From assembly GCA_900114885.1 (NCBI GenBank), contig FOUN01000002.1:248001-312000 (forward strand): a DNA stretch of 64,000 bases, in the 5' to 3' direction. Origin of the DNA: Psychrobacillus psychrodurans. Lineage in GTDB: Bacteria; Bacillota; Bacilli; Bacillales_A; Planococcaceae. Below the pieces are notes generated by a model. That model saw nothing but the letters and a program-made list of their open reading frames with translations, was not told the DNA's origin and ran no database searches. Shown here one piece after another: positions 23,017-52,529 of this stretch. Both the position numbers and the translations under genes were made by a program. Numbering within the stretch: position 1 is the first letter of the stretch; every line of letters begins with the position of its first letter.

Positions 23017-23050
23017 AGGAGAAATGGTGGAAGAGTTAGGAGAAGAAGTT

Positions 23051-24139
23051 ATGATGAATAATCTAATACGTATTGTTATTGCTATAGCTATAGTACTAGT
23101 GATATTTATATATTTTGATAATCCTGTACATGAAAATGAGCTCATTACTGGCTCAAATAATACAGGGCAGGTAATTCCAAACTCTTCAACAGAAATGGTG
23201 GAAGTTGAGACCGCATTTACACGTCCCAAGGAAGGAGTTTCAACATTAGTAGGAGGTTCGACCCAAGCGGTTATTGAGTTATTAGGGAAACCTACTCGGA
23301 CCGAACCATCAGCATTTGGATATGAGTGGTGGGTATACAATCAGTCTCTTAAAACTTATTTGTTAATTGGAGTAGAAGGAGATAAAGTAACCCAAGCCTT
23401 TGCTGCTGGAGATAACGTAGAGGTCGCACCTTATAAAATTGGGCAAGACGTAGATGAAATTTATCGTTTTACGTTAGTGCAATCTGAAATTTCATTTTCT
23501 ATAGATTCAAATACTTATACTTTTTCTCTTACGGAAGATGATATAGACAATAGAATATTAGTTCAGTTTGATAATTTATTTGCTATGCTATATATAGATT
23601 CGGAAAGTCGGCAGCTAGAAGCAGTTAGGTTTACAGACCCCAAAACTATTTTGCTGCATAAGCCTTATGATATTTTATATAACGGAATAATGGTAGAAAC
23701 AAAAACTCCTGATTCCCTCTTTCAAGCTGCGATAGACCGCGCAAATGAGCGTCAGGTATTTGAACTTACAAATGTATATCGTTATCGTAATAACCTTCGA
23801 TTACTAGTGTCTGATAATGAATTGCAAAATATTGCGATGGATAATAGTGAGGAAATGGCGAAAAATAATATTGTTGTCAATGAAAAGTTTGAAGTATCCA
23901 AGTTTAGTGATCAATTAAAAGAGTCATCAATTGAATTTTCTAGTGCCGCTGGAAATACAGCCGCTTTTTATTTTGATGCAGGAGAAGCCGTAAATGGTTG
24001 GATGAATTCTAATGATCATCGCGAGATCTTATTAGGTCAGGATTATACACATACTGGTATTGGGGTTTACGGTAGCTACTATACGCAAAACTTTATTGAA
24101 CGAACTGCTGTAAATAATTCCAAGGATATTCTTCAATAA
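23051..24139 (+). CDS. ylbC: YlbC, CAP-domain (SCP/PR1) protein with N-terminal CAP-associated domain
   Basis: A 362-residue protein with an uncleaved signal or anchor helix (about residues 4-22). A beta-rich CAP-associated domain follows (about 60-200; LVGGSTQAVIELLGKPTRTEPSAFG...WWVYN). The C-terminal CAP domain (about 235-360) contains LTNVYRYRNNLRLLVSDNELQNIAMDNSEEM and the NDHREILLGQDYTHTGIGV ending. It is probably exported and membrane-attached; the biochemical role is unknown. The start is ATG 23051, 8 nt after AGGAG; the ATG at 23024 lacks a site. It ends one base before the convergent aspartokinase stop. Confidence 0.85.
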   Translation: MMNNLIRIVIAIAIVLVIFIYFDNPVHENELITGSNNTGQVIPNSSTEMVEVETAFTRPKEGVSTLVGGSTQAVIELLGKPTRTEPSAFGYEWWVYNQSLKTYLLIGVEGDKVTQAFAAGDNVEVAPYKIGQDVDEIYRFTLVQSEISFSIDSNTYTFSLTEDDIDNRILVQFDNLFAMLYIDSESRQLEAVRFTDPKTILLHKPYDILYNGIMVETKTPDSLFQAAIDRANERQVFELTNVYRYRNNLRLLVSDNELQNIAMDNSEEMAKNNIVVNEKFEVSKFSDQLKESSIEFSSAAGNTAAFYFDAGEAVNGWMNSNDHREILLGQDYTHTGIGVYGSYYTQNFIERTAVNNSKDILQ

Positions 24140-24871
24140 TTAGTTAGAGATAAACGTTCCCTCGCTTTCCTGATACAAAGAGCGAATGTGCAAAGGGACT
24201 TGATGAAGAGCAGCAAATGTAGCTGCTCTTTTTTGTATGACTTCGACAGGTTCATCTATCTTCTCCTGAAGTTCCTCATAGGTCATAAAAGGTATCAGCT
24301 CCACATTTTTGCTTGTAGAAGGATCTGACGTCATGATACCAGGGACATCCTTGTAAAATTCAACTACGTCAGCACTTAAATAATATCCATAAACGACGGC
24401 GGTTAGATCACTCCCACCTCTTCCTAATGTAGTAAAATTGTGTGTACTTTCTGAGACACCTTGAAAACCTGGGACGATGACGCATTGGAAATTTTCAAAT
24501 GCTTGATGTACAGAGCTCATGTCTACTTTCTTAATAAGGGCATTTCCATACGTTTCGTTCGTTATGATGCCGGCATTTTTGCCATAAAGAAGGGTAGAAG
24601 ATACTCCTTCAGTTTTTAGTTCTGTTGATAATACAGAACTTGAGATCAACTCACCACATGCAGAGAGCAAATCTGTTTCAATGCTATTGTCGTTGATAGG
24701 AAGCAAATCTAAAAGAGTATCAGTTGCATAGGGTTTCCCCCTTCTTCCCATTGCCGAAACAACGACAAGCACGTTTTGATGGGTATTGATAGCTTGCTGG
24801 ATTCGTTGTATTACTAATTGTCTGTTCTGATGATTTTGCATGGCAATACCGCCAAATTTTTGAACAATCAT
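24140..24871 (-). CDS. Stand-alone aspartokinase catalytic domain (no ACT domain)
   Basis: A 243-residue amino acid kinase. KFGG at residues 5-8, VVVSAMGRRGKP (about 40), SACGELISS (about 75), the TTLGRGGSDLTA motif (about 160) and FYKDVPGIMTSDP (about 183) place it with aspartokinases, which phosphorylate aspartate at the head of the DAP, lysine, threonine and methionine pathways. Standard enzymes have 400 or more residues with two C-terminal ACT domains for feedback control. Here the protein ends after the kinase domain, so control by lysine or DAP is likely lost. ATG 24871 was chosen; a GTG at 24883 is possible. It diverges from the MurE-type ligase gene and abuts ylbC. Confidence 0.8.
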   Translation of the reverse strand: MIVQKFGGIAMQNHQNRQLVIQRIQQAINTHQNVLVVVSAMGRRGKPYATDTLLDLLPINDNSIETDLLSACGELISSSVLSTELKTEGVSSTLLYGKNAGIITNETYGNALIKKVDMSSVHQAFENFQCVIVPGFQGVSESTHNFTTLGRGGSDLTAVVYGYYLSADVVEFYKDVPGIMTSDPSTSKNVELIPFMTYEELQEKIDEPVEVIQKRAATFAALHQVPLHIRSLYQESEGTFISN

Positions 24872-24891
24872 AATCTCAACCACTCTATTCG

Positions 24892-24944
24892 TGACATTTC
24901 AAACACTCCGTTCATACGATACAGGGAATTCATTTTACTGTATG
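24892..24944. promoter_or_regulatory. Overlapping candidate mother-cell sigma promoters, aspartokinase / murE-like
   Basis: On the plus strand, TGACATT (24892-24898), a 14-bp spacer and CATACGAT (24913-24920) fit sigma-E (kmATATT, N14, CATACAHT) at 5 of 7 and 7 of 8 positions; CATACGATA also fits the sigma-K minus-10 CATAnnnTA. On the minus strand, CATACAGTA (24944-24936) fits the same minus-10 classes; its minus-35 is unclear (CACC 15 bp upstream would suit sigma-K). The two start sites would lie only a few bases apart, so the promoters should exclude one another. Confidence 0.45.
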
Positions 24945-24979
24945 CGATTTTACAAGAATGGTGTAGGGAGTGTGTTACT

Positions 24980-26440
24980 ATTTATCCGTTAAATGAACTT
25001 TTAAAAGGATTAACATATAGTGTAATTGGTGACTTTTCAATATGTCGGATGAGCAAGATTGTTAATTTCTCAAAGCAGATTAAAGAAGGCGATATATTTA
25101 TTTGTGAACGAAATAGTCGTCGTATTATAGATGAAGCGATTCATCTGGGCGCAGTTGCAGTAATATCAGAAGTTTTTCTAGCAGACTGCTGCGTTCCTCA
25201 GATTATTATTCCTTCTGATATGGAACGATTTAAGCAGAGAATTTGCGAAAAAACCTATGAACTGTATGGGAAAAAAGTGAAGACAGTAGCGATTACAGGA
25301 ACAAATGGTAAAACGACAGTCGCTTTTTTCATAGGTCAATTACTTATGCAACAAAGGAAATCGGTTTGTGTAATCGGGACATTAGGTGTGTTTATCAACG
25401 GAAAGCAGTTGAAACAAAATTTCCGCAATAATACAACACTACCATTCTATGATTTTATACAAATTGTACATTATTGCTATGAGCATTCTGTCGAATTCAT
25501 CATTTTAGAAGCATCTTCGCAAGGATTATTGGACAATCGCTTAGGGAGGTATCCGATAGACGTAGGAGTATTTTTGAATATTGGTAAAGATCATCTTGAA
25601 TTCCATGGGGGAATGGTTCCGTATAAAAAGTCAAAAGAATTACTCGTACCACTATGTACCACATTAGTAGTAAATGCAGATGATGACTGGTGTAGAACAG
25701 TTGCTCAAAATTCTTTTTTACCTATAATAAGCTTCGGTGTCGATGCTCGTAATACTGTTACTTTTCAACAAAAAAACGACAATGAAGATGAAATAACGTA
25801 TCAATTTTATGTGAAAAATGAAGAAATAGAAGTGAAAATGAAGAACAGTGGATTTTATAATGGGATGAATCTCGCCGCTGCACTTGCTTCTTTATGGGCT
25901 TTGAAGGTTCCACTTCATAATGTAAAACCTCTTATGCTTCCAAACGGAAGATTTCAGCATGTAGATAATAATAAAGGGATTAAAGTGCTAATCGACTACG
26001 CGCATACACCAGATGCTTTGGAAGCTTGCCTTTCAACTATTAATGCTTTTGCTAAAAATAATATATACGTTGTATTTGGATGTGGAGGAAATAGAGATAA
26101 GAAAAAACGAAACGAGATGGGAAAAGTAGCAACAACTTTTGCAACACAATCAATAATAACCTCCGATAATCCACGAGATGAAAACCCAACAGATATTATA
26201 AAAGAAATTGTAAGGGGATTGGATAAAAAGAAATATCATATAGAACCTGACCGAAAGCAGGCCATTATTTATGCACTACAAATAGCAAAAGAAGGAGATG
26301 TTGTATTAATAGCAGGAAAGGGACATGAACAAGAGCAAATTTTACATGACCTCGTAGTCCCTTTTTCTGATCGTGATGTAGTTAGTTCTTATTTTGAAGA
26401 AGTAGGAGGATTAATTACAAAAAATGATCCTGTCGCATAA
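24980..26440 (+). CDS. murE: MurE-type UDP-MurNAc-tripeptide synthetase, meso-DAP signature
   Basis: About 486 residues, close to B. subtilis MurE (494). Mur ligase motifs are present: ATP loop VAITGTNGKTTVAFF, LEASSQGL, NIGKDHLEFHG, the YKKSKELL region of the carbamylated lysine and DYAHTPDALEACL. The amino acid pocket has DNPR (26165-26176, about residue 396) and GKGHE, the residues typical of enzymes that add meso-DAP; lysine-adding MurE enzymes usually lack that Arg. No ATG, GTG or TTG exists where the N-terminus should be. ATT 24980, 9 nt after AGGGAG, is the best guess. The gene is away from the dcw cluster, which lacks murE. Confidence 0.82.
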   Translation: MYPLNELLKGLTYSVIGDFSICRMSKIVNFSKQIKEGDIFICERNSRRIIDEAIHLGAVAVISEVFLADCCVPQIIIPSDMERFKQRICEKTYELYGKKVKTVAITGTNGKTTVAFFIGQLLMQQRKSVCVIGTLGVFINGKQLKQNFRNNTTLPFYDFIQIVHYCYEHSVEFIILEASSQGLLDNRLGRYPIDVGVFLNIGKDHLEFHGGMVPYKKSKELLVPLCTTLVVNADDDWCRTVAQNSFLPIISFGVDARNTVTFQQKNDNEDEITYQFYVKNEEIEVKMKNSGFYNGMNLAAALASLWALKVPLHNVKPLMLPNGRFQHVDNNKGIKVLIDYAHTPDALEACLSTINAFAKNNIYVVFGCGGNRDKKKRNEMGKVATTFATQSIITSDNPRDENPTDIIKEIVRGLDKKKYHIEPDRKQAIIYALQIAKEGDVVLIAGKGHEQEQILHDLVVPFSDRDVVSSYFEEVGGLITKNDPVA

Positions 26441-26886
26441 GCAATTTTTCTTCCGTCAGGCTGTGTTACGGTGCATTCCATCACTATTGTTTGACGACCT
26501 TTATGTAAGTATTTAGCGGTTGCTATTAAGGTTTTTTCCGTTGAAGATTTAACATAGTGAATTGTCATATTCGTTGTAACTGCACCTTTTCCTTCTGGGT
26601 GTAAATCCTTGTTAATTAAAAATCCCATTGCATTATCAGAAAGTGTAGCGATAATACCGCCATGAGGCATATTAAAACTATTATATGTGATTGGAGTTAT
26701 TGGCATTGTGACAATACATTGATCTTGCTCATACTGAGTATCCATTTGAAATACGGCATTTAAGTATGTAGGGGCATGGTTTTGCTGCTTTTGTTGAATC
26801 GCATTTAGAAAATCATTTATTAAGCTTAGTTCTTGTTCAGATGACTGTTCTGCTACTTTTTCAAATAAATTTTGTAGTTTGTTCAT
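26389..26886 (-). CDS. PaaI/hotdog-fold acyl-CoA thioesterase
   Basis: A 165-residue hotdog protein. YNSFNMPHGGIIATLSDNAMGFL (about residues 72-94) carries the HGG(I/V) helix motif of the PaaI family, with GAVTTNMTIHYVKSS as the following strand. Such enzymes hydrolyse acyl-CoA thioesters; the substrate is unknown. AGGAG precedes the ATG. The gene converges on the murE-like gene and their 3' ends overlap by 52 bp. Confidence 0.87.
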   Translation of the reverse strand: MNKLQNLFEKVAEQSSEQELSLINDFLNAIQQKQQNHAPTYLNAVFQMDTQYEQDQCIVTMPITPITYNSFNMPHGGIIATLSDNAMGFLINKDLHPEGKGAVTTNMTIHYVKSSTEKTLIATAKYLHKGRQTIVMECTVTQPDGRKIAYATGSFFVINPPTSSK

Positions 26887-26945: not shown

Positions 26946-26969
26946 TAACTCAGATTGGAGGTTAATCAA

Positions 26970-27419
26970 ATGATTATGACTAACGAATGGGTCGATATAA
27001 TGGACCAGTCGGATATATTATGTACTATGATTCTTTCCTCTGAGCAATTTTACCAATACTTAGATGCACATCGTGCTGTATATACAGATATATCTTTAGT
27101 AAGTGAGGTTAATAGCTTCACTAGACTAAAAGAGCAATACGAAGAGGTTCAACGTTTCGGGAAATACCATCCTGATTATTCGAAGGTTATGAAAGATATT
27201 CGTGTAACTAAACGAAAATTGGATATGGTAGATGCAGTGGCGCACTTGAAAGTCGCTGAGAACGAATTGCAGGACTTACTGGACGAAGTGAGTTTGTTAA
27301 TTGGTAAATCTGTTTCAGAAGGCGTTAAGGTTCCTGTAAGTAATCCATTTTTCGCTTCCTCGGGCTCTAGCTGCGGAAGTGGATGCGGAACAGGCGGATC
27401 TTGTTCTTGTTCTGCCTAA
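26970..27419 (+). CDS. ylbF: YlbF/RicF, subunit of the RicAFT (Y-) complex
   Basis: A 149-residue protein with a helical YlbF/YmcA-type core (residues 10-115), followed by a Gly/Ser/Cys-rich tail with five cysteines in CGSGCGTGGSCSCS. In B. subtilis, RicF with RicA (YmcA) and RicT (YaaT) carries Fe-S clusters and promotes mRNA maturation by RNase Y, competence, biofilm formation and sporulation. The tail cysteines are the likely cluster ligands. ATG 26970 lies 8 nt after GGAGG; the TTG upstream is within that site. A terminator follows. Confidence 0.92.
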   Translation: MIMTNEWVDIMDQSDILCTMILSSEQFYQYLDAHRAVYTDISLVSEVNSFTRLKEQYEEVQRFGKYHPDYSKVMKDIRVTKRKLDMVDAVAHLKVAENELQDLLDEVSLLIGKSVSEGVKVPVSNPFFASSGSSCGSGCGTGGSCSCSA

Positions 27420-49603: not shown

Positions 49604-51511
49604 TTGGCAATTTCAAAATTAAAACAAATTGTACGTCTACGCATGATTTGGATTATGATTATTTTTTTATTCTTATTGGTACTGTTCAAGTTAGTTCAAC
49701 TTCAATTTTTTCAGTTTGATGAACTTACGACGAAAGCGAAAGAAAGCTGGGATAGAGAACTACCTTACGCATCGCTGCGTGGGAATATTTTGGATCGTAA
49801 TGGTGAAGTAATTGTTGGCAATAAGCTTTCACCTACCTTGTTTTATATGCCATCTCAAAATGATGATCCAGAACAAGTAGCTGATGAAATTGGTCCTTTA
49901 ATTGGCATGGACAAAGGTGAGCTTTTAGAGCAAATAAACAAAAGAAGCTACTTGGTAAAGATTGCACCAAAAGGAAAAAATATTTCAAGTGAACTTGCAA
50001 TGGACATACAAGATAAGAATATTAAAGGATTGTATGCAGGAGTAGATTATATAAGAGACTATCCATATGGTAATATGTTATCTAGATTAGTAGGATTCAC
50101 TGGATATGATGCACAAGGGCTTGCTGGAATCGAATATCAATATGATTCTATTTTAAAAGGCGAGTCTTCTGCTGTGCGAATGTTTACCGACGCCAAGGGA
50201 GTACCGCTTCCTCATGTGGATGATGGTTGGAAAAATGGAGTAAAAGGTAATCATGTTCAGCTTACCGTGGATTTGGATATTCAGAAAGTAGTTGAACGTG
50301 AACTTACTCAAGCTATGCAAAAGTATGAGGCGACTCAAGCGATTGCAATCGTCATGAATCCGAAAAACGGTGAAATATTAGCCCTTGCTTCTGCTCCTAA
50401 TTTCGATCCATCTTCATATCAAGAGGTGGACTCAACTATTTATAACAGAAACTTACCAGTCTGGATGACTTTTGAACCTGGTTCAACTTTTAAGATTATT
50501 ACATTAAGTGCCGCGTTAGAAGAGAAAGTAGTAGACTTAGAGGAAGATCATTTCCATGATATCGGGTATACAATGGTCGAGGGAGCGAGACTCCGTTGTT
50601 GGAAACGTGAAGGACATGGAGATCAAACATTCCTAGAGGTTGTTGAAAATTCTTGCAACCCTGGTTTTATTGAACTAGGGAATAGAGTTGGTGCAGAGAA
50701 ACTGTCGGAGTACATACGCAACTTTGGCTTTGGTGAATCTACAGGATCAGGGATGGCTGGGGAATCAACGGGTATTCTATTTAGTAAAGAGAACTTTGGA
50801 CCTGTAGAACATGCTACAACATCCTTTGGTCAAGGGATATCTGTTACACCTATCCAACAAGTTCAAGCTGTAGCCGCAGCAGTTAATGGTGGATATCTGT
50901 ATAAGCCATTTATTGTGAAAAATACAATTGATGGTGAAACAAACGAAATATTATCGAGTAGTGAGCCAGAGATGAAGCGTCAAGTTATTAGTGAGGAAAC
51001 TTCCGCCATTGTACGAGATGCTTTGGAACATGTTGTTGCGGAAGGATCAGGTAGAAACGCGTATCGCGACCAACTTCGTATTGGTGGTAAAACAGGAACA
51101 GCACAAAAAGTTCAAGACGGGCGGTATATGGAAGGGGAATACATTGTTTCCTTTATAGGATTTGCACCTGCTGATAATCCTGAGCTTATCGTATATGTGG
51201 CAATTGATAACCCAAAACATAGCACTCAATTTGGTGGAGTCATTGCAGCACCAATTGTAGGTCAAATTTTGGAAGATTCAATGAAGACTAAAGGTAGTGG
51301 CACCCAATTGGAAAAAGAGTATAGATGGGGAGATGTGGAACAAGTCCGTACACCAAACCTAGTAGGAACGAAAAGGAAAGAAATTACGTCCTATATGTAT
51401 CCATTTACTATTGTTTGGCATGGTGAGGGAGACGAAATAATATCTCAGCTACCAAAAGAAAATGGGCTCATCCCATTAGATGGAACAATACATGTCTACA
51501 CAAATAAATAA
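49604..51511 (+). CDS. spoVD: Sporulation-specific PBP SpoVD
   Basis: A 635-residue class B PBP paralogous to PBP2B, with one anchor helix (about 14-34), YASLRGNILDRNGEVIVGNKLS, SxxK in GSTFKIIT (about 295), SxN in ENSCNPG (about 350), KTG in GGKTGTAQK (about 492) and one C-terminal PASTA domain. SpoVD makes spore cortex with SpoVE. The start is TTG 49604; AAAGGGG ends only 2 nt before it, so initiation may be modest. In B. subtilis, murE follows; here mraY does. Confidence 0.9.
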   Translation: MAISKLKQIVRLRMIWIMIIFLFLLVLFKLVQLQFFQFDELTTKAKESWDRELPYASLRGNILDRNGEVIVGNKLSPTLFYMPSQNDDPEQVADEIGPLIGMDKGELLEQINKRSYLVKIAPKGKNISSELAMDIQDKNIKGLYAGVDYIRDYPYGNMLSRLVGFTGYDAQGLAGIEYQYDSILKGESSAVRMFTDAKGVPLPHVDDGWKNGVKGNHVQLTVDLDIQKVVERELTQAMQKYEATQAIAIVMNPKNGEILALASAPNFDPSSYQEVDSTIYNRNLPVWMTFEPGSTFKIITLSAALEEKVVDLEEDHFHDIGYTMVEGARLRCWKREGHGDQTFLEVVENSCNPGFIELGNRVGAEKLSEYIRNFGFGESTGSGMAGESTGILFSKENFGPVEHATTSFGQGISVTPIQQVQAVAAAVNGGYLYKPFIVKNTIDGETNEILSSSEPEMKRQVISEETSAIVRDALEHVVAEGSGRNAYRDQLRIGGKTGTAQKVQDGRYMEGEYIVSFIGFAPADNPELIVYVAIDNPKHSTQFGGVIAAPIVGQILEDSMKTKGSGTQLEKEYRWGDVEQVRTPNLVGTKRKEITSYMYPFTIVWHGEGDEIISQLPKENGLIPLDGTIHVYTNK

Positions 51512-51557
51512 AACAGTACATTCATTATTAGTTGATCGTATTTAAGGAGATTTTTTC

Positions 51558-52529
51558 ATGACATTGTCTACAACGGTTATTACACTTATTGTTAGTTTTT
51601 TAATCACTATTATTCTTGCTCCAATAGTTATTCCGTATTTAAGAAGAATGAAATTTGGTCAAAGTATTAGAGAAGAAGGCCCACAGTCGCATCATAAAAA
51701 GGCGGGTACTCCTACAATGGGAGGACTTATCTTCTTAGCATCTATTATTATTTCTACACTTGCTCTTTCATTTTATTTTGATCAGTTAACTACTCAGTCA
51801 ATTGTTTTATTAGTTATCCTGGTAGGATTCGGTGTAATTGGGTTTTTAGATGACTTTATAAAAGTAGTATTGAAGAGAAATCTTGGTTTAACTTCTATTC
51901 AGAAACTAATTGGTCAGATTCTTATTGCGGTAATTGCGTATTTCTTACTAAAGCAAGGTCCATTCGATACAACCATTGAAATACCATTTACACAAATGGA
52001 ACTAGCTTTAGGACAATTGTATATTGCTTTCCTAATATTTTGGTTAGTAGGGTTTTCAAATGCTGTCAATTTAACAGATGGCTTAGATGGTTTAGTAGCA
52101 GGAACTGCAACGGTTGCCTTTGCGACATTTGGTGTTCTAGCACTTGCTTATGAACAAACAGATATAGCTATATTCACTTTCAGTGTTTCGGGTTCACTTT
52201 TAGGGTTTTTATTATTCAACAAAAATCCAGCAAAAGTGTTTATGGGAGATACGGGATCTCTAGCATTAGGTGGCGCACTAGCAATGGTATCCATTCTAGT
52301 TAAACATGAATTGTTATTACTACTAGTCGGGATTATTTTTGTAATTGAAACATTGTCGGTAATTTTGCAGGTAATTAGCTTTAAAACAACCGGAAAACGT
52401 ATATTTAAAATGAGCCCAATTCATCATCATTTTGAATTATCAGGTTGGAATGAACGTAAAATAGTTACCGTTTTTTGGGCAATAGGTTTTATAGCTGCAA
52501 TGATTGTAGTCTGCTTGGAGGTTTTGTAA
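51558..52529 (+). CDS. mraY: Phospho-MurNAc-pentapeptide transferase MraY
   Basis: A 323-residue integral membrane enzyme with ten helices that makes lipid I. It has [15 protein letters not shown] (about 36-50), [16 protein letters not shown] (about 96-111) with the DDxxK motif, [17 protein letters not shown] (about 170-186), [10 protein letters not shown] and [14 protein letters not shown] (about 292-305). AAGGAG precedes the ATG. It directly follows spoVD after 46 nt. Confidence 0.96.

Follow-up and report, generated by a model that had tools for sequence, protein, structure and literature searches.

A sporulation-specific enzyme activity that adds meso-diaminopimelate (meso-DAP) was reportedly described by Linnett and Tipper in the 1970s in Bacillus (Lysinibacillus) sphaericus. 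The forespore side of the same organism is reported to use lysine. No gene for the sporulation-specific DAP-adding activity was found in a literature search, which left subscription papers mostly uncovered and does not exclude prior publication. With respect to wall chemistry, Lysinibacillus has lysine and aspartic acid (PMC6971209). That species now placed in Psychrobacillus contain ornithine is taken from a title among the references of PMC11376405, and their reclassification into this genus from a title among the references of PMC9781867. Psychrobacillus is described as spore-forming, and one new species as being without visible spores (PMC13228071).

The closest described enzymes are the MurE ligases of known substrate. 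The Asn and Arg residues of the DNPR motif contact the free carboxyl group of DAP, and the lysine-type MurE of S. aureus (4c12) has DNPA at this position (PMC3829189). According to the same source, the A409R variant of S. aureus MurE, which mimics DNPR, gains no activity with DAP, and the motif of the DNPR region is not the sole determinant of the MurE substrate (PMC3829189).

The locus described here lies in a 64-kb stretch of Psychrobacillus psychrodurans DNA, referred to as the window, from a genome of 4.0 Mb in 47 contigs. In the ORF list of the window, a ligase on the plus strand, designated W, and an aspartokinase on the minus strand are divergent, at the coordinates first assigned to these ORFs (Table 1). 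The first-pass annotation had described a full-length MurE-type ligase with DNPR and GKGHE motifs lying divergent from an aspartokinase reduced to its kinase domain, a description that the ORFs, profiles, and motifs bear out. It had also noted a dcw cluster running from spoVD to mraY without an intervening murE, and this too is confirmed: spoVD (49604–51511) is followed by mraY (51558–52529) with no murE in between, the gene names being assigned by reading of the sequences. The kinase gene ends one base past the end of the ylbC-like ORF. The three named matches to the window murE are from Psychrobacillus (82–88% identity), and the arrangement is not due to chance, because it recurs in relatives. 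W of P. psychrotolerans DSM 11706 is found in locus L015.

Table 1. Features of the W locus and of the dcw junction (window coordinates)
Feature	Position	Strand	Basis or remark
W-type murE (UDP-MurNAc-tripeptide synthetase, DNPR and GKGHE)	24980..26440	+	ORF, profiles, motifs; AUU start likely
ACT-less aspartokinase, 243 aa, kinase domain only	24140..24871	-	closest NCBIfam model NF006068
Mother-cell sigma-type promoter-like site for murE, AC-N17-CATACGATA	24894..24921	+	19/19 Psychrobacillus
Divergent promoter-like site for kinase, AC-N16-CATACAGTA	24936..24962	-	19/19 Psychrobacillus
Shine-Dalgarno-like GGGAG, 5' of the murE ATT start	24966..24970	+	sequence, Psychrobacillus alignment
ylbC-like CAP-domain gene, left flank of conserved site	23024..24139	+	name from reading and position
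ylbF-like gene, right flank of conserved site	26955..27419	+	name from reading and position
spoVD-mraY junction of dcw cluster, murE missing between	49604..52529	+	gene names from reading of sequences

W is likely to be the ligase with which the mother cell adds meso-DAP to its cortex precursors, a reading in which the substrate, timing, and compartment, as well as the roles of the kinase and of two further ligases, O and V, are inferred. The reading rests on sequence family and motifs, on synteny, on the co-occurrence of W with SpoIVA and the vacant sites of SpoIVA-less genera, and on conserved promoter-like sites; the evidence for the role of W is comparative only, with no expression or enzyme data. 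In the proposed mechanism, W would act in the mother cell, adding meso-DAP as the third residue of the peptidoglycan stem, such that cortex precursors would carry DAP, and the growth wall would contain ornithine in Psychrobacillus or lysine in its relatives (wall type of the relatives inferred). A mother-cell sigma factor of the sigma-E or sigma-K type would drive W and, divergently, the kinase, which, without ACT domains, could keep aspartyl phosphate flowing to DAP free of end-product inhibition. Growth-phase MurE activity would come from another ligase, O in Psychrobacillus and in genus g2, and V, which carries a DDPR motif, elsewhere. Similar to B. sphaericus, the proposed system comprises a spore-former, another diamino acid in the growth wall, and a second, DAP-type ligase tied to sporulation. 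The difference is that an enzyme activity is described for B. sphaericus, whereas here a gene is put forward as a candidate, and its genomic position, promoter-like sites, and occurrence are described for a genus with an ornithine wall and for related genera.

W passes the MurE cut-offs at full length (TIGR01085, 391 versus 257.3 bits; NF001126, 406.9 versus 373 bits). As in the meso-DAP MurE of E. coli (1e8c and 7b53; NF001126), both meso-DAP-type pocket motifs, DNPR and GKGHE, are present in the window protein; unlike the E. coli enzyme, W is encoded outside the dcw cluster, is linked to sporulation, and in Psychrobacillus probably starts with AUU. All 38 aligned W sequences contain D-N-x-R together with GKGHE. 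The exact DNPR is found in 33 of these, and the remaining five read DNAR, DNSR, or DNCR, so that both Asn and Arg are kept in 38/38, whereas V has Asp replacing Asn. W differs from the lysine-type MurE proteins of T. maritima (4bub) and S. aureus in combining Asn as the second motif residue with Arg as the fourth; the V protein of the relatives shares DDPR with 4bub, a structure named as an LD-lysine ligase. Because A409R in S. aureus MurE did not lead to DAP activity, the motif alone does not fix the substrate of W.

Three MurE-like ligases, W, O, and X, with 21–31% identity to one another, are encoded in the genome of origin, which rules out that W is simply a displaced sole murE. The first-pass annotation had called for a search for a second murE with a lysine- or ornithine-type motif in place of DNPR, and neither O nor X has DNPR. 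O (L002:913–2457, G000:C28; 514 aa) has TLSR/LSRS in place of DNPR and GCQGM in place of GKGHE, and X (L003:1183–2628, G000:C23; 481 aa) has DDLN and GKGIE motifs. O is restricted to 24 of the 200 family genomes, comprising all 19 Psychrobacillus genomes, all four g2 genomes, and one g10 assembly of 640 contigs (G183), in which the O copy possibly sits on a foreign contig. With pocket motifs unlike DNPR and GKGHE, O is a candidate ornithine-adding ligase, its substrate being inferred. The distribution of X is patchy (39/200 family genomes); it is found in 10 of 19 Psychrobacillus genomes, truncated in two of the 10, and also in SpoIVA-less genera.

V-level MurE proteins, defined by a score of 459 bits or more, are found in all 17 genera other than Psychrobacillus (g1) and g2 in the family search of 19 genera, and DDPR and GKGHE are present in 32/32 V sequences read, from 12 genera. 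V is likewise encoded outside the dcw cluster, adjoining a gene read as prfC-like in four of the five V loci read. Four SpoIVA-less genera have a single MurE (E ≤ 1e-40, V-level score), as seen in 3/3 genomes of g6, 2/2 of g8, 4/4 of g9, and 3/3 of g16. A second, different MurE-like gene is thus present as anticipated, O in 19/19 Psychrobacillus and a V-level gene elsewhere, and its role in growth is inferred. In a tree of these proteins, 39 of 40 W sequences are joined, with a support of only 0.559, and the copy of genome G020 stands apart on a long branch; V (0.711 support), O, X, and Y are each recovered as a clade. The Y-type MurE-like sequences (L161:2920–4410, L162:2766–4265, and L163:2685–4205) were read in g7 and g11 and are perhaps also present in g12, judging by score. 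They have VDHPG in place of DNPR and are missing GKGHE, and Y may not be a standard MurE.

An alternative is that Psychrobacillus uses W as its normal MurE during growth and that the ligases O and X serve some other purpose, a reading to which the top score of W among the three on MurE models and the unusual nature of O, without DNPR and GKGHE, both lend support. The distribution of the genes makes this assignment quite unlikely, as W is missing in SpoIVA-less relatives, and the g2 genomes G001, G038, and G054 keep O, with no W found in them by the MurE search. O is also the one MurE-like ligase common to all 23 genomes (19 Psychrobacillus and four g2), since g2 has no intact W and only about half of the Psychrobacillus genomes carry X.

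Assignment of W to sporulation rests on its co-occurrence with SpoIVA, used as the marker of spore-formers, in a sample of 200 family genomes from 19 genera. The W and SpoIVA lists were compared by eye; related genomes are not independent, no species tree stands behind the counts, and an order-level search for outgroups yielded family members only. Of 15 leucine dehydrogenases retrieved, four were aligned to solved structures, and the two from g14 had the best scores against 1leh (668 and 683 bits, versus 652 for g13 and 630 for g10), which hints only weakly at Lysinibacillus. W is found in 142 genomes at a threshold of E ≤ 1e-70, and SpoIVA is present in 154; all 142 W genomes are SpoIVA-positive, and W is found at this threshold in none of the 46 SpoIVA-less genomes. 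Twelve SpoIVA-positive genomes have no W match at E ≤ 1e-70. Among these, G085, G122, and G152 have W beside the kinase and ylbC and were therefore missed by the threshold, and G100, G157, G170, G174, and G198 were outside the follow-up. In G020, a member of g2, a diverged W of 436 aa with a changed GKGHE is found together with a kinase at the usual site (L165:6297–8350), and this W is probably decaying, to judge from its sequence. SpoIVA matches are weak in the other g2 genomes, G001, G038, and G054 (E values of 1.9e-12, 2.0e-56, and 1.1e-40, respectively). The diverged W and kinase of G020, the absence of W from the other members, and the weak SpoIVA matches are possibly a snapshot of loss in g2.

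The position of W is fixed. In 20/20 loci retrieved from 12 genera, W is flanked by ylbC- and ylbF-like genes within the cta-ylb-coaD region, with further genes interposed in a few loci. The ylbC-ylbF interval contains neither W nor the kinase in 4/4 SpoIVA-less genera in which the region was found (G006, G045, G044, and G016), and in these four genomes the distance from the ylbC match to the ylbF match is 35 to 637 bases. Elsewhere in these stretches, outside the ylbC-ylbF interval, there are two weak MurE-like matches (21% and 24%).

On a family scale, it seems reasonably likely that most spore-formers have different amino acids at the third position of the peptidoglycan in growth and in the spore, and that the swap depends on a single ancestral murE, kept at a constant site under mother-cell control, with an aspartokinase freed from regulation as an optional supplier; in Psychrobacillus, the swap would be from ornithine to meso-DAP by an AUU-started ligase. 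A gene is thereby proposed for a ligase activity that has reportedly been known biochemically for decades, and the proposal is extended across the family. If correct, it would offer a natural system for studying the requirement of the cortex for DAP, a genomic marker associated with spore formation, and an example of wall chemistry being switched by one cell-type-specific ligase.

The intergenic region between W and the kinase contains two promoter-like sites. In 19/19 Psychrobacillus, an AC-N17-CATANNNTA site is found 5' of murE and an AC-N16-CATANNNTA site, on the opposite strand, 5' of the kinase, and the block around both sites is near-invariant in genomes whose proteins are down to 60% identity. 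For background, 435 ORFs of at least 120 aa from the window and 28 fetched loci, including W and the kinase and with starts set mechanically, were considered; the full site is present within 120 bases upstream of nine of these. The plain CATANNNT box is common (107/435 ORFs), and it is therefore its constant position that counts. In other genera, 18/19 loci have CATANNNT no more than 120 bases from the position that aligns with window residue 1. In eight of nine non-Psychrobacillus loci with the kinase, the box is at −68 to −71 (it is further upstream in L065), and in 10/10 loci without the kinase it is at −23 to −30. The full AC-spaced form is observed in seven of the 19 loci of other genera. 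A short leader ORF as an explanation for the conserved intergenic block was set aside, as it is interrupted in at least two of the 19 Psychrobacillus genomes and both sites are kept in all 19.

Linkage to sporulation alone leaves the compartment unfixed, such that W might be active in sporulation but serve the germ-cell wall on the forespore side, or both compartments. The conserved −10 element CATANNNTA, which we take to be of the mother-cell sigma type on the basis of the sigma-E/sigma-K consensus, argues against this placement, as does the reported use of lysine on the forespore side of B. sphaericus, and we regard it as very unlikely. The same kind of −10 is seen 5' of SpoIVA, a mother-cell gene in B. 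subtilis: a CATANNNT box lies 39–79 bases before the SpoIVA match in 10/10 genomes looked at, although the −35 side differs from that of the murE site. Expression in growth is not excluded, since the bases of the murE site overlap a stretch that can also be read as sigma-A-like (GTGACA-N18-TACGAT).

The divergent kinase has as its best family NF006068 (PRK08210), which is presumably the B. subtilis DapG type. Its score of 266 bits is under the full-length cut-off of 474, and it covers only profile positions 3–246 of 405. As the match ends at 246 and the stop codon is at 24140, there is no ACT part, and the kinase, in contrast to NF006068, does not qualify as having C-terminal ACT regulatory domains. 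GRGGSD, one of the conserved substrate-site stretches of aspartokinases, is kept in 22 of 23 aligned kinase loci and changed in G020; from this conservation, the ACT-less kinase domain is inferred to be probably active. The genome of origin also encodes two full-length aspartokinases (427 and 454 aa), which have GGTS where the kinase-only form has GG[IVMW]A. The window kinase is the sole kinase-only aspartokinase in this genome, and the other two short AA_kinase matches read as ArgB (beside argJ/argD) and PyrH (beside tsf), by sequence and neighbors.

Kinase-only forms are present in 23/61 genomes (E ≤ 2e-50, open frames of 240–318 aa), which rules out loss of the ACT part as a mere local accident. 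All 23 genomes are SpoIVA-positive; 22 have a W match, and the 23rd is G020, with its diverged W. A 288-aa open frame with a 35% match to the kinase (E of 6e-40, sequence unread) is found in the SpoIVA-less genome G028. At 10 of 20 loci (g1, g3, g4, g5, g11, and g17) the kinase is encoded divergently from W, and it is missing beside W in the other 10 (g10, g13, g14, g15, g18, and g19), and it is therefore an accessory part. The first-pass annotation had inferred that the pair could be the mother-cell module and had asked whether it is absent in non-sporulating members. This inference is largely supported on comparative grounds, with 142/142 W genomes SpoIVA-positive and W matched in 0/46 SpoIVA-less genomes; for expression in the mother cell, the indication consists of the conserved sigma-E/K-type sites only.

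The ACT-less aspartokinase probably supplies DAP, a role that is inferred, and any role in dipicolinate is speculation. An aspartokinase that is free of ACT domains and best matched by NF006068 would also suit a pair whose main purpose is precursor supply for dipicolinate, with W incidental. This assignment is highly improbable, as W occurs without the kinase in half of the loci and every one of the 22 genomes whose kinase-only form is intact has W. Furthermore, the DpaA_N (SpoVFA) model has no match in any of 61 family genomes, the genome of origin included, and matches the B. subtilis control.

The start of W is unusual. AUU start codons are very rare in bacteria, and the true start of murE is likely, although unproven, to be the ATT at 24980, as inferred from the Psychrobacillus alignment: this ATT is in frame in 19/19 Psychrobacillus, and no canonical start is common to all. 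An in-frame TGA begins nine bases 5' of the ATT in five Psychrobacillus genomes, and an in-frame GTG two codons 5' of the ATT occurs only in G023. Other genera have ATG, GTG, or TTG near the position of the Psychrobacillus ATT. The TTG at 24818 was rejected as the murE start because it falls within the kinase gene, the likely start of which, also judged from sequence, is the ATG at 24871, for a protein of 243 aa. At its 3' end, murE is overlapped by 52 bases by a thioesterase-like ORF on the minus strand (26389–26886), and L081, L082, and L083 show a convergent overlap of a similar kind.
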